A stretch of 64,000 bases of DNA from Amnibacterium kyonggiense (GTDB taxonomy: Bacteria; Actinomycetota; Actinomycetes; Actinomycetales; Microbacteriaceae): NCBI RefSeq assembly GCF_004364555.1, contig NZ_SOAM01000002.1, positions 372,001-436,000 of the forward strand, read 5' to 3'. The notes under the pieces were generated by a model that was given only the letters and a program-made list of their open reading frames with translations, searched no databases and was not told where the DNA came from. A program made the position numbers and the translations under genes. This document shows, piece by piece, positions 29,701 to 43,404 of the stretch; the first letter of the stretch is position 1; each line of letters starts with the position of its first letter.

Positions 29701-30903
29701 TCAGTCGTCCGAGCCGTGGCCCCCGTGGCCGCCGCCGTGCCCGGAGCCGTGGCCGCTCCCGTCCGCCCGAGCGACGCGATCGTCGGACGCCGGCGCGGGC
29801 GCGGGCGCGGGCGCTCGCGGTGCGGCGGCGGGCGCGGAGGGGGTCCCCTCGGTCACGACTGGCTCGGCGGCCGGCAGCGCGCCGGGCAGTGCCTGCTCGA
29901 CCGCGGCCGGGTCGACGACGACCGCGACCGCGCCGCCGAGCAGCGCCCCGGCGAGGGCGACGCCCGCGATCGCGACGGCCGTGCGCCCGCGACGACGACC
30001 CGACCGGATGCGCGCGGCGCTCCCGACGGGGTCGAGCGGGGCCGTGAACCGGCCGGCCGCCGCGGGGAGGACCTCCGGCCGCCGCCCGGATCCGAGCGCG
30101 CTGGCGAGCGCCGCGGTCGCGGACGCGTCGAGGCGGTCCTCGGGTGCGAGCGCGGTCATGCCGCGCAGGAGGTCCGCCCAGTCGTCGGGCAGCGCCGCGG
30201 GCACGGCCGGCGTGCGCAGCAGCCGGCCGGCGAGCGACTCCGCCTCCGGCCCGGGGAACGCGTCCGCGCCGGTGATCGCGGCGAGGACGGTGAGGCCGAG
30301 CGAGTAGACGTCGGACGCGGCAGTCACCCGCTCGCCGCGCGCCTGCTCCGGGCTGAGGAACCGGAGCGTGCCGACGACGGTGCGCTCCGCCGTGGTCCGG
30401 GTCGCATCCGCTCTCCGGGCGATGCCGAAGTCCGAGAGCTTCGCCTCCGCGACCGCCTCGCCGCGGAGGCGCAGCAGCACGTTGCCGGGCTTCACGTCCC
30501 GATGCACGACGCCCCGGCGGTGCGCGTGGGCGAGCCCCGCGGCGACGTCGCGGAGCACGACCGCGGCCTCCTCGAGCGGGAGCGCGCCGCGCTGGAGCCG
30601 CTGGTGCAGCGACGGCCCGTCGACGAGCTCCATGACGAGCGCGGTCCCGCGGCCGGTGTCGAGCACGTCGTGCAGCGCGACGATCCGGGGGTGGTCGAGC
30701 TCGGCGAGGATGTCCGACTCGCGCCGCCCGATCTGGGCGCCGACGGGCTCCGCGCCGGCCGGCAGCAGCTTCACCGCGACCGCGCGGCCGCGCTCCCGGT
30801 CCCACGCGCGGTGCACGACGCCGGACCCGCCGCGGCCGATCCGGTCGCCCAGCACGTAGCGGTCGTCGAGCACGGCACCGGCGCCGACGTCCCGGTCGGC
30901 CAT
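29701..30903 (-). CDS. Membrane Ser/Thr protein kinase with extracellular His-rich tail
   Basis: A 400-residue Hanks-type kinase. The catalytic domain (residues 15-270) has the glycine loop IGRGGSG (22-28), Lys45, HRDVKPGN (134-141) and DFG (158-160), all intact. One membrane helix follows at about 308-330, then a Pro/Ala-rich linker and a C-terminal Gly/His tail (383-400) with five histidines. No PASTA repeats are present, so this is not a PknB-type muropeptide sensor; metal or redox sensing by the His tail is conceivable. The start overlaps the stop of the RnfD-FNR gene by ATGA, so it is the last gene of the flavin operon. Confidence 0.92.
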   Translation of the reverse strand: MADRDVGAGAVLDDRYVLGDRIGRGGSGVVHRAWDRERGRAVAVKLLPAGAEPVGAQIGRRESDILAELDHPRIVALHDVLDTGRGTALVMELVDGPSLHQRLQRGALPLEEAAVVLRDVAAGLAHAHRRGVVHRDVKPGNVLLRLRGEAVAEAKLSDFGIARRADATRTTAERTVVGTLRFLSPEQARGERVTAASDVYSLGLTVLAAITGADAFPGPEAESLAGRLLRTPAVPAALPDDWADLLRGMTALAPEDRLDASATAALASALGSGRRPEVLPAAAGRFTAPLDPVGSAARIRSGRRRGRTAVAIAGVALAGALLGGAVAVVVDPAAVEQALPGALPAAEPVVTEGTPSAPAAAPRAPAPAPAPASDDRVARADGSGHGSGHGGGHGGHGSDD

Positions 30904-32438
30904 CAGTACCCCAGGAACCGGTCGCTGCGGAGCCGCCGCATCCCGGCCGACCGCCCGACGCGTCGGCCGAGCGCGACCCACGTCGGCGAGCCGGCGACGA
31001 AGCCGTCGCGCTCCCGCAGATCGGGCACCGCCGCGACGAGCGCTTCCCGCTCGAGCCGCGCGCCGAGCCGCTCCCAGCCGTCCGGCAGCGGCACGTCCTC
31101 CGGTCCGACGACGAGCATGCGAACCCGGCGAAGCGCGCCCGCGGCCCACGCAGGATCGTCGCCGGCGCGGAGGTGCCAGACCAGGACGGCGTCGCGGTCG
31201 GGCTCCGTCTCCGCCATCGCGAGGAACGGGGTCACGCCGACGCCGCTCGCGAGCCACAGCACCGCCGTGCGGGGATCGCGGGGCGGGAGGAAGTCCCCCG
31301 CGACGGTGCTGCCCGCGACCGCGCCGCCGATCGGCACCGCGGCCAGCGCGCGCTTGAACGAGCTCGAGCGCTCGGCCCGGCGCGTCACGATGCGGACGGC
31401 GGTGCCCGGTGCGCTCGCGGGGCTGAACGCGCGGCGCGCGCCGCGGGCGTCCTGCCGCGCGTGCGGGAGGCTCAGCTCCACGTACTGACCGGGGCGGATG
31501 CGCAGCGGCGCCTCGCTCGTGAACCGCAGCTCCTCGATGCCGCCCGGGTGCTCCTCCCGACCCTCGAGGACGAAGCGCAGTCGGCGCCGCTGGCCGAAGC
31601 CGAACGCGACGAGGTTCGCGAGCACGAGCGCGACCTCCGGGGTCAGCCCGACCCAGCCGATGCGCAGCGGGATCAGGAGGAGCACGCCGACGAGCGCGCT
31701 GACGAGGATCCGCTGCCGTCGCCGCGGCGGCGCGGTGAGCGGCTCGGAGAGCATGAACGCGCCGAGGAAGAGGTACGGCGAGGAGGCGAGCGCCGTCCAC
31801 ACCGCCGCGTCGAGCGGGCTGCCCGCCGCCAGCAGGCGGATCGCCGCGCCCGGGACGGCGATCAGGAGCATCGGCAGCGCGAGGTCCCACGCGCCGGCGC
31901 GGCGCAGCACGAGCGCCCCGCCGATCACGACGAACGGGAGGAGGAGCGGCGTCCCGACCCACCAGGTCGCGCCGGACAGCCGGGTCAGCAGCACCGCGAC
32001 CGCCCCGATCGCGACCGGGTTGACGAGGTGCCGCCCCCGCACGACGAGCAGGTACTTCGAGAGGTTCGCCGCCGCGACAGCCAGCGCGAGCGCGCCGAGC
32101 GCCTGCGCGGTCGGGAGCGGCAGGAAGAGGAAGAATGCGAGCAGCCCGGTGATGATCCCGGACTCGGTGTGCGGGCGGATGCGCCGCACGAGCGCGAAGA
32201 GCCGGTTGGTGCCCGCGCCGACGACGACCGCCACGACGAGGGACGCGAGGAGGCCGAGCACGGGGAACGGTACGAGGCCGACCGCGGAGCCGACGACCGC
32301 GACGAGGGCGATCGCGAGCAGGACCAGCACGACCAGGCGGTACATCGTGACGCGGCCGGTCAGCCGGTCGAGGAGGAGGCCCGGCGTGCGGAACCGCTCC
32401 GGGCGCGCCGCGTCGCGGACCGGAGCGGGCGCGGTCAC
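30903..32438 (-). CDS. RnfD-like membrane domain fused to FNR-type flavin reductase
   Basis: A 511-residue fusion. Residues about 30-290 form eight to nine membrane helices like RnfD/NqrB proteins. Residues about 290-511 form a ferredoxin-NADP reductase-type module: RIRPGQYVELSLPH, the flavin-binding ARRAFSPASAPGTAV and the NAD(P) loop LASGVGVTPFLAM. It would move electrons from cytosolic NAD(P)H across or into the membrane towards an external flavoprotein. The GTG start overlaps the FMN-binding lipoprotein stop (GTGA) and the kinase overlaps its end, so all three are coupled. Confidence 0.88.
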   Translation of the reverse strand: MTAPAPVRDAARPERFRTPGLLLDRLTGRVTMYRLVVLVLLAIALVAVVGSAVGLVPFPVLGLLASLVVAVVVGAGTNRLFALVRRIRPHTESGIITGLLAFFLFLPLPTAQALGALALAVAAANLSKYLLVVRGRHLVNPVAIGAVAVLLTRLSGATWWVGTPLLLPFVVIGGALVLRRAGAWDLALPMLLIAVPGAAIRLLAAGSPLDAAVWTALASSPYLFLGAFMLSEPLTAPPRRRQRILVSALVGVLLLIPLRIGWVGLTPEVALVLANLVAFGFGQRRRLRFVLEGREEHPGGIEELRFTSEAPLRIRPGQYVELSLPHARQDARGARRAFSPASAPGTAVRIVTRRAERSSSFKRALAAVPIGGAVAGSTVAGDFLPPRDPRTAVLWLASGVGVTPFLAMAETEPDRDAVLVWHLRAGDDPAWAAGALRRVRMLVVGPEDVPLPDGWERLGARLEREALVAAVPDLRERDGFVAGSPTWVALGRRVGRSAGMRRLRSDRFLGY

Positions 32439-32908
32439 GCCGCCGCCTCGGTCCGGATCTCCGCGAGGGCCTTCTCGAAGCCCTGGCTCGTCAGCGACGA
32501 GCCGGACACGGCGCCGACCTGGAGGCCGTCGATCCTCTTGCCGACCGCGACGCCGCTGATGCCGGAGGCGGACTGCGCCTCGTACTGCTGCGCCGTGGGG
32601 TCGGCCGCCTTCGGCACCACCTTCACCGCGCTGATCGTGCCGCTCTTCAGCGTGACGGTCACCTCGACCGCGGAGTCGCCGCCGGGCGACTGGTAGTGCC
32701 CGGTCGCCGTGTAGCTCCCGTCCTTGAGGTCGCCGGAGGACGTGCCGGCGCTCGCCGCCGAGCTCGGAGCGGACGCGGCCGGGGCGCTCGACGCGGGGGC
32801 CGCGTCCGAGGCGGTCGGCGCGCAGCCGGCGAGCGCGGCGACGCCGAGCAGCCCTCCGCCGATCGCGGCGAGGCGGCGCAGGGTCGTGCGGGGCCCAGTG
32901 GTGGTCAT
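32435..32908 (-). CDS. FMN-binding-domain lipoprotein, likely flavinylated
   Basis: A 157-residue lipoprotein: signal peptide, lipobox VAALAGC with Cys29, a low-complexity Ser/Ala linker (35-58), then an FMN_bind domain (60-157). The domain ends with SGSSLTS (135-141), which fits the covalent flavin attachment motif S-G-A-T/S-x-T of NqrC/RnfG-type proteins, with Thr140 the likely acceptor. An ApbE flavin transferase would be needed and is not in this window. The start at 32908 has a GAGGGAG ribosome site. First gene of the redox operon, under the minus-strand ECF-type promoter. Confidence 0.88.
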   Translation of the reverse strand: MTTTGPRTTLRRLAAIGGGLLGVAALAGCAPTASDAAPASSAPAASAPSSAASAGTSSGDLKDGSYTATGHYQSPGGDSAVEVTVTLKSGTISAVKVVPKAADPTAQQYEAQSASGISGVAVGKRIDGLQVGAVSGSSLTSQGFEKALAEIRTEAAA

Positions 32909-32948: not shown

Positions 32949-32978
32949 ACCACGGCACGGCGGCGCGGATGGTTCACC
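32949..32978 (-). promoter_or_regulatory. Predicted ECF promoter of the flavin/kinase operon
   Basis: On the minus strand GGTGAACC (32978-32971) is followed after exactly 16 bases by CGTGGT (32954-32949), 41 bases before the lipoprotein start. The element matches the divergent sigma-gene promoter in -35 box, spacer and -10 box. Confidence 0.65.
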
Positions 32979-33020
32979 GCGGACATCCGCTCGGGCGTGT
33001 CGCGACGGATCCGCCGATCC

Positions 33021-33050
33021 GGTGAACCGACCGCGCCGCCGCTCCGTAGT
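33021..33050 (+). promoter_or_regulatory. Predicted ECF promoter of the sigma/anti-sigma pair
   Basis: GGTGAACC (33021-33028), 16 bases, CGTAGT (33045-33050), ending 34 bases before the sigma-factor start. It is identical in design to the minus-strand promoter 43 bp away, which suggests autoregulation. Confidence 0.65.
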
Positions 33051-33084: not shown

Positions 33085-33588
33085 ATGGACGAGCAGGACG
33101 CGCTGCTGCGCTCGCTCACCGACGAGCACGGCCCCGACCTGTTCCGGTTCGTTCTCCGGCAGACCCGGGACCGCGAGCTGGCGGAGGACATCGTGCAGGA
33201 GACGCTCGCACGGGCCTGGCGGAACCCGGCCCGCATCGCCGCGGGCCGCGACGCCGCCCGCGCCTGGCTGTTCACGGTCGCGCGGAACCTCGTCATCGAC
33301 GACGCCCGAAGCGCGCACAAGCGGCGGGAGCTCGGCGTCGAGGAGCTGCCGGAGCGGCCCGTCGACGACGGCGTGGACGCGGCGCTCGACCGCATCCTCG
33401 TGTCGGACGCGCTCGCCTCCCTGTCGCGCGATCATCGGGTCGTGATCGTGGAGGCGCACTACCTGGGGCGCTCGGTGCGCGAGATCGCGGAGCGGGAAGG
33501 GATCGCGGAGGGCACGGTGAAGTCGCGACTGCACTACGGGATGCGGGCGCTGCGGCTCGCGCTCCAGGAGCGGGGGGTGACGCGATGA
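33085..33588 (+). CDS. ECF-type RNA polymerase sigma factor
   Basis: A 167-residue group 4 sigma factor consisting of regions 2 and 4. Region 2 shows LFRFVLRQTRDRELAEDIVQ and LARAWRNPARI; region 4 shows VIVEAHYLGRSVREIAEREG followed by TVKSRLHYGMRALRLAL. The ATG at 33085 has a GGAGGCGGG ribosome site. The anti-sigma gene overlaps its end (ATGA), the classic paired arrangement. Its own promoter and that of the divergent redox operon share GGTGAACC-N16-CGTRGT, the probable target sequence. Confidence 0.94.
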   Translation: MDEQDALLRSLTDEHGPDLFRFVLRQTRDRELAEDIVQETLARAWRNPARIAAGRDAARAWLFTVARNLVIDDARSAHKRRELGVEELPERPVDDGVDAALDRILVSDALASLSRDHRVVIVEAHYLGRSVREIAEREGIAEGTVKSRLHYGMRALRLALQERGVTR

Positions 33589-34295
33589 GCGACTCGATCC
33601 ACGACTGGGACGGCGCCTACGTGCTCGGCGCGCTCGAGCCCGCCGACCGGCACCGGTACGAGGAGCACCTCGCCTCCTGCTCCAGCTGCTCCCGGTCCGT
33701 GCGGGAGCTCGCGGGCCTGCCCGGCATCCTCGGGACGCTGGACGAGGCGGAGGCCCTCGCGCTCCGCGACCTGCCCGACGACGCCGCCCTGCGGGACGGG
33801 GCGCACGCCTCCGACCGGGCGGCCGGCGTCGCCCGACGCGTCCGGAGCCGGCGTCGACGCAACCGGCTCGTCACCGCGCTCGCGCTCGCGGCCGTCCTGG
33901 TCGTCGGCTCGATCGGCGGCTGGGGGCTGGTCCGCGCCGTGCAGCCGGCGTCGCAGCCCGCGGCGGCGGCGCAGGCGCACCGCCTCGAGCCGATCGGCGA
34001 CTCCCATCTGACCGCGGACCTCCGGGTCACGCCCGTCGGCTGGGGCACGCGCATCGACTGGTCGTGCGACTACGCGGCGACGGCGTCGCAGCACACGGAG
34101 CAGTACGAGCCGACGAGCTACTCCCTCGTCGTCCACACGGACACCGGCGGCACCGCCACCGTCGCGACGTGGACCTCGGACGGCGGCGAGGCGAGGAACC
34201 TCGTCGCCTCCACCGCGATCCCGGCCGACGACATCGCGTCGGTCGACATCCGGGTGACGGGCAGCTCCCGGCCGCTCGCCTCGACCTCCTTCTGA
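33585..34295 (+). CDS. Membrane anti-sigma factor with zinc-finger (ZAS) domain
   Basis: A 236-residue anti-sigma factor. The cytoplasmic N-terminus begins with DWDGAYVLGALEPADRHRYE and holds the zinc motif His28-x3-Cys32-x2-Cys35. A single membrane helix lies at about 95-117 and is followed by an extracellular domain (about 120-236). The HxxxCxxC motif suggests redox sensitivity, which would suit a partner redox operon, but many ZAS proteins are not redox-responsive. It overlaps the sigma gene by four bases. Confidence 0.92.
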   Translation: MSDSIHDWDGAYVLGALEPADRHRYEEHLASCSSCSRSVRELAGLPGILGTLDEAEALALRDLPDDAALRDGAHASDRAAGVARRVRSRRRRNRLVTALALAAVLVVGSIGGWGLVRAVQPASQPAAAAQAHRLEPIGDSHLTADLRVTPVGWGTRIDWSCDYAATASQHTEQYEPTSYSLVVHTDTGGTATVATWTSDGGEARNLVASTAIPADDIASVDIRVTGSSRPLASTSF

Positions 34296-34331: not shown

Positions 34332-35051
34332 ATGGATCCGCGACCGGACGAGGAGCTCGACGCGCTGCGGCGCCGGCTCTACGCGCCCGGTGTCACCGCC
34401 CAGGACGTCGCCCGGTACGAAGCGGCGGCCGGGGTACCGGAGGCGGCGCCTGCACCCGCGTCGCCGCCGGCCGCCCCGCGCCGACCGCGCCGTGCGGCGC
34501 TCATCGGGGTCGCGGTCCTCGCCGCCGCGGTGCTCGTCGGCGCGACGCTCGCCGTGGCCCGGACGACCGAGCACCGCGCGACGCCGAGCGCCTCCCCCAC
34601 GGCGACGATCCCGGAGGTCATCGACGCCCGCGTCCCGCTCGCGGCGTCGATGCGGACCGCGCTCGTGGCCCGGCTGCGGGCGGGCCGGTCCGCGGGCATG
34701 CTCGACCTCGTCGAGGCCGATCCCGGCCTCCGGCCGCCGCAGCTGACGACCGTCGGCCGGGCGGCGAGTACCGAGTACTCGGGCACGGGCCCGACCGTGC
34801 TGCGCCTCGACCCGAGCGCGCTCGCCGAGCGGGGCGGTCGCGCGACGGTGATCGTCGTGCTCGCCGGCACCGGCGGGTACACCTGGCGCGCCGATCGCGG
34901 GGAGCGGCTGATCGCGGCGCACGCCTCCGCGGCGCAGGCGGGCGCGCCGGTCGCGTCGACCTTCGCCTACGGCCCGGGTGCGCCGGACCGCCTGCTGCTC
35001 CTCGTGCCGGACCGGGCGCGCTGGGGCGCCGTCGTGGTCTTCACGGACTGA
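34332..35051 (+). CDS. Unrecognised single-span membrane protein, paralogue P1
   Basis: A 239-residue protein in three parts: a cytoplasmic N-terminus with ALRRRLYAPGVTAQDVARYE (11-30), a Pro-rich basic linker, one membrane helix at about 54-75, and an extracellular domain with GTGPTVLRLDPS, ATVIVVLAGTGGYTWRA and a terminal WGAVVVFTD. The same architecture and motifs recur in P2 (35106), P3 (37498) and P4 (42209). I know of no assigned function. The ATG lies six bases after CACGCT. The last 15 bases, including the stop, are duplicated in tandem immediately downstream. It sits directly behind the anti-sigma gene. Confidence 0.8.
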   Translation: MDPRPDEELDALRRRLYAPGVTAQDVARYEAAAGVPEAAPAPASPPAAPRRPRRAALIGVAVLAAAVLVGATLAVARTTEHRATPSASPTATIPEVIDARVPLAASMRTALVARLRAGRSAGMLDLVEADPGLRPPQLTTVGRAASTEYSGTGPTVLRLDPSALAERGGRATVIVVLAGTGGYTWRADRGERLIAAHASAAQAGAPVASTFAYGPGAPDRLLLLVPDRARWGAVVVFTD

Positions 35052-35105: not shown

Positions 35106-35828
35106 ATGACCGGGCCGGGGACGACCGAGACGCGGGCCACCGAGGCGCTCCGCCGCCGGCTCTACGCCCCGGGCGCGACCGCGGAGGACCTCGTCGCCTT
35201 CCGTGCCGCCGAGGCGACTGCCCGCCCACCCGCGCTGTCGCCGGTGCGCCGCCGCCGCCCGCGGACCGCCGCGGTGCTCGCCGCAGCGGTGGTCGCGATC
35301 GCCGCACCGCTCGCGCTCGTGACCCTGCGCCCGCTGGCCGCCGTGCCCGTCGCGACAGGACCGACGCCGACGGCGACCGCGGTGCCGTCCCCGGAGGGCG
35401 TCGTCCTCCCGGCGCCGCAGTCGGTGCGGGCCGCGTTCGTCCGGCAGCTGGCGTCCCGCTCGGGCGCGGGGCTGCTGGAGTACCTGTACGGGCATCCGGC
35501 CTTCCTGCCCGAGGCGCTGCGGCAGCCGACGAGGGGCCACGTCACGGAGACCGCCGGTGACGGGCCGAGGACGCTCGACCTCTCGCCGAGCACCGGCGAC
35601 GGACCCGCCGGGAGGCTGACGGTGGTGATCGTCGTCGAGCGAGCCGCGCGCATCTTTTGGACCGCGACCGGCCGGACCGGCGACGCGGCGCTGCACCGCC
35701 GACTCGACGCACCCGCCGGCGTGCCGGTGAGCGCGACGGTGGCGTACAAGCACGGCGCGCCGACCACCCTCGAGATCGAGGTGCCGGAGGGCTCGAGCTG
35801 GGGCGCCTTGGTCGCCCTGACGAACTGA
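35106..35828 (+). CDS. Unrecognised single-span membrane protein, paralogue P2
   Basis: A 240-residue member of the same family as P1: N-terminal EALRRRLYAPGATAEDLVAF, a basic stretch RRRRPR, one helix at about 56-76, then an extracellular domain with GDGPRTLDLSPS, LTVVIVVERAARIFWTA and terminal SWGALVALTN. The ATG follows GACGCT with a six-base spacer. Only 39 bp separate it from the duplicated tail of P1. Function unknown. Motif conservation at both ends and divergence elsewhere suggest old duplicates under selection. Confidence 0.8.
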   Translation: MTGPGTTETRATEALRRRLYAPGATAEDLVAFRAAEATARPPALSPVRRRRPRTAAVLAAAVVAIAAPLALVTLRPLAAVPVATGPTPTATAVPSPEGVVLPAPQSVRAAFVRQLASRSGAGLLEYLYGHPAFLPEALRQPTRGHVTETAGDGPRTLDLSPSTGDGPAGRLTVVIVVERAARIFWTATGRTGDAALHRRLDAPAGVPVSATVAYKHGAPTTLEIEVPEGSSWGALVALTN

Positions 35829-37497: not shown

Positions 37498-38202
37498 GTG
37501 GAGGATCCGCTCGACAGCCTGCGCCGTCGGCTCTACGAATCGGGCTCGACGGCGGCCGACGTCGAGGCGTACCGGGCCGCGGAGGCGGAGCGACTCGTCG
37601 TCGAGCCCCCGGCGACGCCGAAGGTCGCTCGGCGGCGGGGTCGACGCGGTCTCGTCGCCGCGGGCGTCGTCCTGCTCGTCGCGGCCGGCGTCGCACTGGT
37701 CGTCGTGCGTCCGGCCGTGCGCCCGGCGGAGCGCCCCGCCCCGGCTGCCTCCGGGATCGCGGCCCCCGTCGCGACGCGAGCGCGGTTCGCGGCGGCGCTC
37801 GACGCCGGGCGGGACCCGGGGCTGCTCGACTGGCTCAATGCGCACCCGAAGGCGCTGCTCGCCTCGCTCCGGTCCGCGGGCCGCGCGGACAGCACGGCCT
37901 TCACGGGCGCCGGCCCCACGACGATGACCCTCTCGCCCACGACGGAGGAGGAGCGCGCCGGCCACCTCACGGTCGTGCTCGTCACCGACCGGGCCGCCCG
38001 CTACGTCTGGCGTGCGACGGTGGTCGCCCAGCACAACGACCGCTCCGGTCCCGAGCCGCCCGTCGCCGCGCACGAGGGCGGCGCACGGCGCGGCGCTCCG
38101 GTCAGCGGCACGGTCGGCTACGACGGCGGCGTCCCGACGCGCCTGACGCTGCTGCTGCCCACCGGCGTGCGGTGGGCAGCAGTCGTCGTCTACACGGACT
38201 GA
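37498..38202 (+). CDS. Unrecognised single-span membrane protein, paralogue P3
   Basis: A 234-residue member of the P1-P4 family: SLRRRLYESGSTAADVEAYR near the start, a basic cluster RRRGRRG, one helix at about 52-70, then an extracellular domain with GAGPTTMTLSPT, LTVVLVTDRAARYVWRA and terminal RWAAVVVYTD. The GTG at 37498 lies six bases after CAGGGT (37486-37491). It is separated from P2 by the HNH gene and two R2 repeats. Its stop lies about 20 bp from the convergent decarboxylase stop; a ten-base repeat, GCTCAGGCGG, occurs twice there (38205 and 38221). Confidence 0.8.
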   Translation: MEDPLDSLRRRLYESGSTAADVEAYRAAEAERLVVEPPATPKVARRRGRRGLVAAGVVLLVAAGVALVVVRPAVRPAERPAPAASGIAAPVATRARFAAALDAGRDPGLLDWLNAHPKALLASLRSAGRADSTAFTGAGPTTMTLSPTTEEERAGHLTVVLVTDRAARYVWRATVVAQHNDRSGPEPPVAAHEGGARRGAPVSGTVGYDGGVPTRLTLLLPTGVRWAAVVVYTD

Positions 38203-42208: not shown

Positions 42209-42928
42209 GTGACGGGCGAGGACGCGGAGTCGCTGCGCCGGCGCCTCTACGCGCCCGGCGCCTCCGACGCGGACGTCGAGCGCTTCCGCGGCGCAGAACC
42301 GGTTGCCGTCGTGGAGGCGGACCGGCCCGCAGCCGAGCCGGAGTCCGCGCTCCCGACGGGCCGGTCCCGCACCCGGCTCGCCGCCGTCCTCGTGCTCGCG
42401 CTCGTGCTGCTCGTCGCGGTCCTCGCCGTCGCTGTCGGCCGGCTGGCTACGGATGCGGGCCGCCCCGAGACCCCGCCGACCGCACTGCGGATGACCGCGG
42501 AGGACCGGCAGGACATCGCGACCGCGTTCGCCGATGGGACGAACGCCGGCATCGCCGCGTTCCTGGTCACGCATCGGGCTCCGCCCGCCCTCCGGACGGC
42601 GACTCGGTTCTTCACCGAGGAGCACGCCGGCACCGGTCCCGCGACGGTGGACCTCGAGCCCGCGCCGGCCTCGGCGTTCCAGGGCCGCGCGACGGTGCTG
42701 CTCGTGCTGCAGCAGCCGGGCCGCGTGTCCTGGAGCGCGTTCCGCCGGCAGGTCGACGCGACCGGCGAGCAGCGGCTCGTCCTGCAGCGGCAGCGCGGCG
42801 GCGAGCTCGACGGCGAGCAGCTGACCGCCGACACCTTCCCGTATCGCAGCGGCGACCGTCCCGTGCAGGTGCGGATCGACGCCCCGCCGGGCGCGCGCTG
42901 GGGCTTCGCGGTCGTCTACTCGGACTGA
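42209..42928 (+). CDS. Unrecognised single-span membrane protein, paralogue P4
   Basis: A 239-residue member of the P1-P4 family: SLRRRLYAPGASDADVERFR (8-27), one long helix at about 57-79, then an extracellular domain with GTGPATVDLEPA, ATVLLVLQQPGRVSWSA and terminal RWGFAVVYSD. The GTG follows CACACT with a six-base spacer, as in the other paralogues. It lies 34 bp behind the HxlR gene. Its last 13 bases overlap the end of the convergent His/Asp-rich gene. Function unknown. Confidence 0.8.
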   Translation: MTGEDAESLRRRLYAPGASDADVERFRGAEPVAVVEADRPAAEPESALPTGRSRTRLAAVLVLALVLLVAVLAVAVGRLATDAGRPETPPTALRMTAEDRQDIATAFADGTNAGIAAFLVTHRAPPALRTATRFFTEEHAGTGPATVDLEPAPASAFQGRATVLLVLQQPGRVSWSAFRRQVDATGEQRLVLQRQRGGELDGEQLTADTFPYRSGDRPVQVRIDAPPGARWGFAVVYSD

Positions 42929-43224
42929 CCTCGGTCGTCGGCCCTGACGTCGTCATGACCCCGGGAGCGCTTCCCGTGGTCGTCGGCCTTCCCGCCGTGG
43001 CGGCCCCGGGCGTGCTTCCCCCGGTCGTCCGACGTCGCGTCGTCGTGGCCGCGGCCGTGCGTGCCGTGGTCGTCGACGGAGGTGACGGCGGTGACGGCGT
43101 GGCGACCGGCGAGCGGTGCCGCCTGGGCGGACGCGACGGCGGACGCCGTGACGAGGCCGGCGGTGAGCGCGGCGGCGGCGCCGAGACCGGCGACGGCGCG
43201 GGTGCGGCGGGAGCGTGCGGACAT
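42916..43224 (-). CDS. Secreted His/Asp/Gly-rich repeat protein
   Basis: A 102-residue protein with a signal peptide (RSRRTRAV start, hydrophobic core, AQA cleavage region near residue 35). The mature part is about 60 residues of degenerate repeats on the pattern DDxGxHxRGHDD, with about ten histidines and many Asp and Arg residues and no cysteine. This composition suggests metal or polyanion binding outside the cell. A clear GGAGGTC ribosome site precedes the ATG at 43224. It overlaps P4 tail to tail. I recognise no named family. Confidence 0.7.
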   Translation of the reverse strand: MSARSRRTRAVAGLGAAAALTAGLVTASAVASAQAAPLAGRHAVTAVTSVDDHGTHGRGHDDATSDDRGKHARGRHGGKADDHGKRSRGHDDVRADDRGQSE

Positions 43225-43404
43225 GGGAGACCTCCTGATGGGGCGACGGTTCGAGCGCGCGACGGGTCGCCTCCGTCGCGGTGCAGGAGGACCGCGGGAG
43301 GCGACCGGTCGACGCCGGTGGCAGCGGATGCGCTGTCACCCCGTACGACGGAGCACCGGGGCGTTCGGTTCAGTGCAGGATGAGCCCGGGACGGGTGGTG
43401 CGCG

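Follow-up and report, generated by a model that had tools for sequence, protein, structure and literature searches.

SigL promoters of Mycobacterium tuberculosis have a TGAACC-like -35 element. The partner of this sigma factor, RslA, binds zinc and holds SigL when reduced, and oxidation of its CXXC motif releases the zinc and weakens the binding 8-fold (PMC2877774). SigL holoenzyme has been reported to transcribe P-sigL, so that SigL-dependent transcription of sigL is already known in M. tuberculosis, and to prefer CG-T-G-N-C/A-A-G at -10, with Asp60 contributing to the G at -11 (PMC6372665). The sites of SigL, SigE and SigH have been described as similar (PMC4821874). Published accounts of SigL targets in this bacterium name sigL, pks7-pks10, Rv1138c-Rv1139c and recN and, as far as these accounts go, no FMN/NQR operon. 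Another system relevant to the locus described here is that of the NQR/RNF-like flavinylation clusters, reported mostly from Actinobacteria and the candidate phyla radiation; a term search of the paper describing them returned no mention of a sigma factor (Meheust et al., 2021; PMC8238504). A further one is SoxR-Rsx of Escherichia coli, in which a redox sensor switches on both an RNF-type membrane reductase and apbE (PMC12174285). In the open-access literature, nothing was found on the SigL regulon outside mycobacteria, and neither an inducer nor an acceptor was found for the actinobacterial NQR/RNF-like flavinylation clusters; the same literature and term searches of flavinylation/RNF papers yielded no report of a link between SigL and flavinylation-based electron transfer.

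The sigL-rslA pair and the divergent FMN/NQR operon

The window, that is, the whole stretch of 64,000 nucleotides of Amnibacterium kyonggiense that was analysed, contains the following features.

29701..30903, minus strand: Ser/Thr protein kinase with a predicted membrane span (Pfam Pkinase, E 1e-45)
30903..32438, minus strand: predicted membrane reductase, 511 aa, with an NqrB/RnfD-like membrane part and a C-terminal NqrF/ferredoxin-reductase-like part
32435..32908, minus strand: FMN-binding lipoprotein, lipobox LAGC (Pfam FMN_bind, 25.4 bits, cut-off 22)
32949..32978, minus strand: candidate divergent promoter of the FMN/NQR operon, exact match; -35 GGTGAACC at 32971-32978, N16, -10 CGTGGT at 32949-32954
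32992..33003, no strand assigned: 12-base block CGGGCGTGTCGC, identical in three congeners, lying between the two -35 boxes
33021..33050, plus strand: candidate sigL promoter, exact match; -35 GGTGAACC at 33021-33028, N16, -10 CGTAGT at 33045-33050
33085..33588, plus strand: SigL-like ECF sigma factor, 167 aa (Pfam Sigma70_r2 and r4)
33585..34295, plus strand: RslA-like zinc anti-sigma factor, 236 aa (Pfam zf-HC2; PDB 3hug_B, RslA, E 1.3e-12)

The ECF sigma gene named in the original prediction is confirmed and can be specified further as SigL-like, with an RslA-like partner. Its product contains sigma regions 2 and 4 only, and among solved relatives M. tuberculosis SigL is the closest to it (E 2e-49; SigK follows at 1e-11). 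The anti-sigma protein, for which RslA (3hug_B) is the sole solved relative at E up to 1, has an HLASCSSC motif and one predicted membrane span (residues 93-119), and its gene overlaps the sigma gene by four bases; the HXXXCXXC motif is present in 45 of the 47 members of the anti-sigma cluster. The pair is like SigL-RslA of M. tuberculosis, which supplies the nearest solved relatives of both proteins, in the order of a sigma gene followed by that of a membrane anti-sigma factor with HXXXCXXC, and it is like the SigL type in having its own candidate promoter with a TGAACC-like -35 and CGT at -10. Directly after the anti-sigma gene begins a group of four paralogous proteins on the plus strand (34332-35051, 35106-35828, 37498-38202 and 42209-42928) with an LRRRLYAPG...DVxxYRAAE-like start and a hydrophobic stretch seen by eye; two of them were scanned, with no Pfam match, and relatives are found in loci L117 and L118.

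The divergent target had been described as an FMN-binding lipoprotein heading a flavin/kinase operon that would be the main regulon of the sigma factor. The lipoprotein stands, and the core also includes the NqrB/RnfD-NqrF reductase, which had been left unnamed. The FMN/NQR operon has the same boxes in other genera. The kinase is, on gene content, accessory to it, being in the operon in genomes G000 and G002 but absent from that of G004. The reductase gene shares 4 bases with the lipoprotein gene and 1 base with the kinase gene. In Pfam, the window reductase matches NQR2_RnfD_RnfE (PF03116) at E 1.2e-4, below the cut-off, and PF00175 is not reported; its homologue in L129 matches NAD_binding_1 (PF00175) above the cut-off. 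The lipoprotein contains a flavinylation-site-like SGSSLTS, and AGSS or SGSS is found at this position in 74 of the 78 FMN genes checked; SGSS here replaces the [S/T]GA[S/T]-like site of NQR/RNF-like flavinylation clusters. Like the clusters described by Meheust et al. (2021; PMC8238504), the window operon has an extracytosolic FMN-binding protein and appears to join an NqrB/RnfD-like membrane part to an NqrF-like NAD part; unlike those described there, it is without apbE and has an added kinase. The genome has three other loci for ApbE, of which one was returned in two adjacent pieces and another is next to a second nqr copy, and the operon of the L129 relatives contains apbE. Judged by its genes, the window operon would work like an NQR/RNF-like flavinylation cluster but is not a complete member alone, because ApbE is encoded at other loci only. 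In the kinase, the predicted membrane span is followed by a His/Gly-rich C-terminal tail, GHGSGHGGGHGGHGSDD, which is possibly metal-binding.

A matched pair of candidate promoters

The two divergent sites that had been predicted, with identical -35 boxes and N16 spacing, are both exact at 32949-32978 (minus) and 33021-33050 (plus), and they are the only matches in the window (2, versus a mean of 0.01 expected; none of 100 shuffles reached 2). Measured from the -10 box to the start codon, the distance on the sigma side is the 34 bases first given (ATG at 33085), and that on the lipoprotein side is 40 and not 41 (ATG at 32908). Shine-Dalgarno-like sequences, GGAGGGAG and GGAGG, can be seen by eye before both start codons. 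Comparison with the congeners G004 and G002 shows the same divergent layout and the same core boxes, amid other intergenic bases that have changed. Both boxes of the sigL promoter are invariant in two congeners; in the divergent promoter TGAAC and CGT are kept in G004 and G002, with TGAACT replacing TGAACC in the latter.

Recurrence of the motif at sigL loci

The original prediction also proposed that the sigma factor is autoregulated and that the pair reveals its target motif. Recurrence of the boxes upstream of orthologous sigma genes bears this out at the level of sequence: TGAAC[CTG]-N16-CGT occurs within 150 bases upstream, on the sigma strand, in 42 of 50 sigL loci (own genome included), and the reversed pattern in 0 of the same 50 stretches. 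These 50 are what is left of 55 loci entered after five of them (L032-L036), below 120 bits, were set aside. Positions that the pattern leaves free are skewed too, with GG before TGAAC and, in 32 of the 42, G two bases after CGT. A divergent second copy lies within 150 bases in 18 of the 42 loci and none in the other 24. The eight loci in which the site just before sigL is absent are of several kinds. In L021, L024 and L028 (in their longer versions L129, L132 and L135), the site heads a same-strand FMN or YceI gene that precedes sigL; L288, L290, L296 and L297 have a same-strand site 792-876 bases upstream of sigL; and in L029 no upstream site was seen.

The -10 element of M. tuberculosis, T-G-N-C/A-A-G, is matched in part by the window sites, which have T at -12 in both and G and A, respectively one of each, at -11. 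Residue 60, counted by hand from the SigL alignment together with a pattern, is Asp in M. tuberculosis SigL and Ala in the window sigma factor. Across loci, it is Asp in 6 of 77 and Gln in 44 of 77; of the loci with Gln at this position, 30 have the site, 22 of them with T at -11, and the six loci with Asp60 have G at -11 in three cases, A in two and T in one. Recognition of the -10 element by SigL may have shifted together with residue 60, which in a set of related sequences is a hint only. We take the M. tuberculosis -10 consensus with Asp60 as a species-level detail and not as a family feature, because only six of the 77 loci have Asp and 44 have Gln.

Genes with the motif upstream were sought in 27 sigL loci, with genes called by a custom codon-score script instead of a standard gene caller and with the window represented by its part from 24 to 44 kb. 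The motif lies within 250 bases upstream of 47 of the 379 called genes, and the reversed pattern upstream of none. All but three of the 47, which are unrelated, fall into a few families: sigL itself (21), FMN lipoproteins (5, that is, 5/5 of this family), Rieske (4/4), DUF2231 (3/7), Lipoprotein_15 (6/7) and YceI (5/5). One member each of the Rieske, DUF2231, Lipoprotein_15 and YceI families was checked with Pfam; as for the FMN homologues, that of L129 has no Pfam match and that of L120 is just below the cut-off, both being assigned by BLAST clustering. The four DUF2231 genes without a site adjoin a Rieske gene that has one. On these family assignments, the common theme of the sigL neighbours is a predicted extracytoplasmic redox or lipoprotein function. 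In L122, L123, L126 and L127, a pair of Rieske and DUF2231 membrane protein genes is divergent from sigL and is apparently the counterpart, in those genera, of the FMN/NQR operon.

FMN operons near and away from sigL

The family is taken to be Microbacteriaceae, the closest named loci being those of Rhodoglobus, Cryobacterium and Curtobacterium. Among 299 genomes of the family, the reductase is found in 118 (E up to 1e-40), sigL in 107 (E up to 1e-35) and both in 47. Co-occurrence of sigL and nqr was rejected as evidence, since it is not enriched (Fisher p 0.27). The two are less than 5 kb apart in nine of the 47 genomes having both, in several layouts: divergent in G000, G002, G004, G125 and G235, on the same strand in G010 and G271, convergent in G006, and again divergent in G262, where the FMN/NQR operon lies 2.6 kb from sigL. 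The site precedes the linked FMN gene in G000, G002, G004, G006, G010, G125 and G235, and none was seen for G262 in the stretch fetched. In G125 and G235, which belong to one other genus and have identical sites, the matched divergent promoter pair is repeated. Genome G003 has a site before its FMN gene, no sigL match and an RslA-like piece near a contig edge (L274).

Operons not linked to sigL allow a comparison of genomes with and without this gene, the latter defined by no match at E up to 1e-35. The linked copies of nine genomes (G000, G002, G004, G006, G010, G125, G235, G271 and G262), both G003 copies, G032, G035 and G149 were left out of it, and the sample consists of 40 of 40 operons from genomes with sigL and 40 of the 67 listed from genomes without. 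The motif is upstream of the FMN gene in 26/40 of the former versus 2/40 of the latter (Fisher 1.3e-8), and by genus, scored positive when at least half of its genomes have the site, in 10/17 versus 2/19 (Fisher p 0.004), both tests still including shared ancestry. Over the 3.7-kb stretches with and without sigL, controls gave 1 and 1 matches on the other strand and 3 and 0 for the reversed pattern. One region (L309) stops after 989 bases; 2 of the 80 gave no FMN gene, and in L333 this gene seems to be misplaced, so that the site there was left uncounted. The 14 of 40 operons in sigL genomes without a counted site include the second nqr copies of G000 and G004.

For genera of one class only, the counts are 9/12 with sigL versus 0/14 without (Fisher p 7e-5). 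Of the five mixed genera, only g69 agrees (3/3 with sigL, 0/2 without); g87 (0/1 with, 1/1 without) and g89 (0/1 with, 1/2 without) are opposite, and g3 and g106 have the site in neither kind of genome. The exception in g87, G157, has a sigL match split into two overlapping pieces that lie in different frames (contig C14, 29627-30030), and its sigL may be broken although the FMN operon keeps the site; in g89, G096 has the site and no close sigL. A tree-aware paired test on the ApbE tree, with 8 supported pairs, has too few pairs to decide (3.6 agree, 1.4 disagree, median p 0.63), as it has when G157 is counted as sigL-positive (3.5 versus 0.5, median p 0.38).

A riboswitch was also considered for the unlinked FMN operons, with their longer leaders, and was rejected, since a scan of 10 loci returned only glycine riboswitches. 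These lie about 1 kb upstream of FMN/ApbE operons, on the other strand, in two loci, and are tandem (L312, 2596-2773, plus; L317, 834-1029, minus), in two of the four loci of genus g12 scanned.

Other matches in the genome

The genome scan that had been proposed as a check returned 7 exact matches in 3,709,865 bases and 0 for the pattern read backwards. The window pair accounts for two of the seven and the other five are not promoter-like, so that the exact motif was rejected as evidence of a wide regulon. Three of these lie in coding sequence (L001/L198 and L004/L235 by score, L007 by eye), L005/L237 lies at the start codon of an open frame and L006/L253 in a perfect terminator-like intergenic hairpin (both by eye). 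A looser scan with TGAACC-N16-CGT gave 66 genome sites, 51 of them with a coding-frame score of at least 40; two of the other 15 are the pair, the 13 remaining were judged by eye, and no further site with clear conserved promoter evidence was found among the 66. The variant TGAAC[GT]-N16-CGTNG has 33 genome matches, of which 30 were fetched, leaving one non-coding site, between convergent genes. Three further sites of the looser kind stand in promoter position, one of them in the window.

43345..43372, minus strand: third, doubtful site, TGAACC-N16-CGTCGT, beginning 148 bases upstream of a small secreted ORF at 42916-43224

For this site, no equivalent was found in the congeneric stretches L257 and L258, where synteny is uncertain. 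The ORF (minus strand) is small, secreted and His/Asp-rich, with the SigL-like site upstream. A site at a lipoprotein gene (G000:C1:1210.5k, L221) was rejected, the motif being kept in 0 of 4 congeneric orthologues (L265-L268). The third site precedes an rpsO-like gene (L241, identified by eye); compared with G002 and G004, its spacers match about as well as its boxes do, and a -10-like box, TAGACT, stands just upstream. A riboswitch scan of L241, L003 and L272 found no family.

Interpretation of the locus

The locus is best explained, with high probability, as an autoregulated SigL-RslA-type ECF module whose target would be extracytosolic flavin electron transfer. SigL-RNA polymerase would recognise GGTGAACC-N16-CGTNGT and fire two back-to-back promoters, one giving more sigL and rslA and the other an extracytosolic electron-transfer set of reductase, FMN lipoprotein and kinase. 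The reductase would act as a membrane NAD(P)H-flavin reductase (an NqrB/RnfD-NqrF fusion), and the lipoprotein would carry FMN, attached by an ApbE from another locus of the genome. SigL would be held at the membrane by RslA until the zinc CXXC site is oxidised, as in M. tuberculosis RslA. We infer that SigL reads the boxes and that the lipoprotein is flavinylated and, by analogy with the described systems, that oxidation of RslA induces the flavin chain and that electrons flow outward from NAD(P)H.

The FMN/NQR operon might be driven not by this SigL but by a different ECF factor whose specificity overlaps, which we consider improbable. Several of these genomes do contain other ECF sigmas (29-34% identity), similar sites have been described for SigL, SigE and SigH of M. 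tuberculosis (PMC4821874), and in genera g87 and g89 the motif does not go with sigL; however, the motif at unlinked operons tracks sigL across genomes (26/40 versus 2/40, with too few pairs for the tree-aware test), and sigL and nqr are linked in nine genomes. It is quite improbable that sigL autoregulation is real while the divergent copy arose by chance or duplication and the FMN/NQR operon has another promoter. An 11-base spacer stretch, CCGCGCCGCCG, is common to both 30-base window sites and could stem from local inversion or duplication, and this reading would also suit the TGAACT of G002 and the adjacent FMN operon of G262 without a site; yet it is the core boxes that are common to both sites in G002 and G004 and not the spacer stretch (by eye), and in other genera the motif stands before FMN operons, including ones that are not near sigL. 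Finally, an inverted-repeat operator for a dimeric regulator, in place of two -35 boxes, is very improbable: the octamers form a perfect inverted repeat with 42 bases between its halves (GGTTCACC-N42-GGTGAACC) and with a 12-base block between them conserved in three congeners, but 24 of the 42 motif-bearing sigL loci have no divergent copy within 150 bases, unlinked FMN operons with the site show single copies near the gene, and CGT is found again downstream at N16, a feature for which an operator would have no use.

The SigL-RslA module driving a flavin chain is like SoxR-Rsx of E. coli in that a redox sensor would induce a membrane reductase, and it differs in that SoxR is an iron-sulphur activator and not a sigma/anti-sigma pair. 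Extending this analogy, SigL-RslA could be a membrane redox thermostat, a proposal that is rather unlikely. Oxidised RslA would release SigL, leading to synthesis of the NQR-like reductase and the FMN lipoprotein and, in relatives, of Rieske, YceI and DUF2231 proteins; the flavin chain would send electrons to the envelope and restore reduced, SigL-holding RslA, much as Rsx re-reduces SoxR. The feedback of the flavin chain on RslA is a conjecture drawn from that comparison.

Implications

Because one locus carries two matched promoters, the SigL link is testable by a simple reporter assay. A conserved SigL promoter on NQR/RNF-like flavinylation clusters would supply these with a likely regulator and a redox theme.
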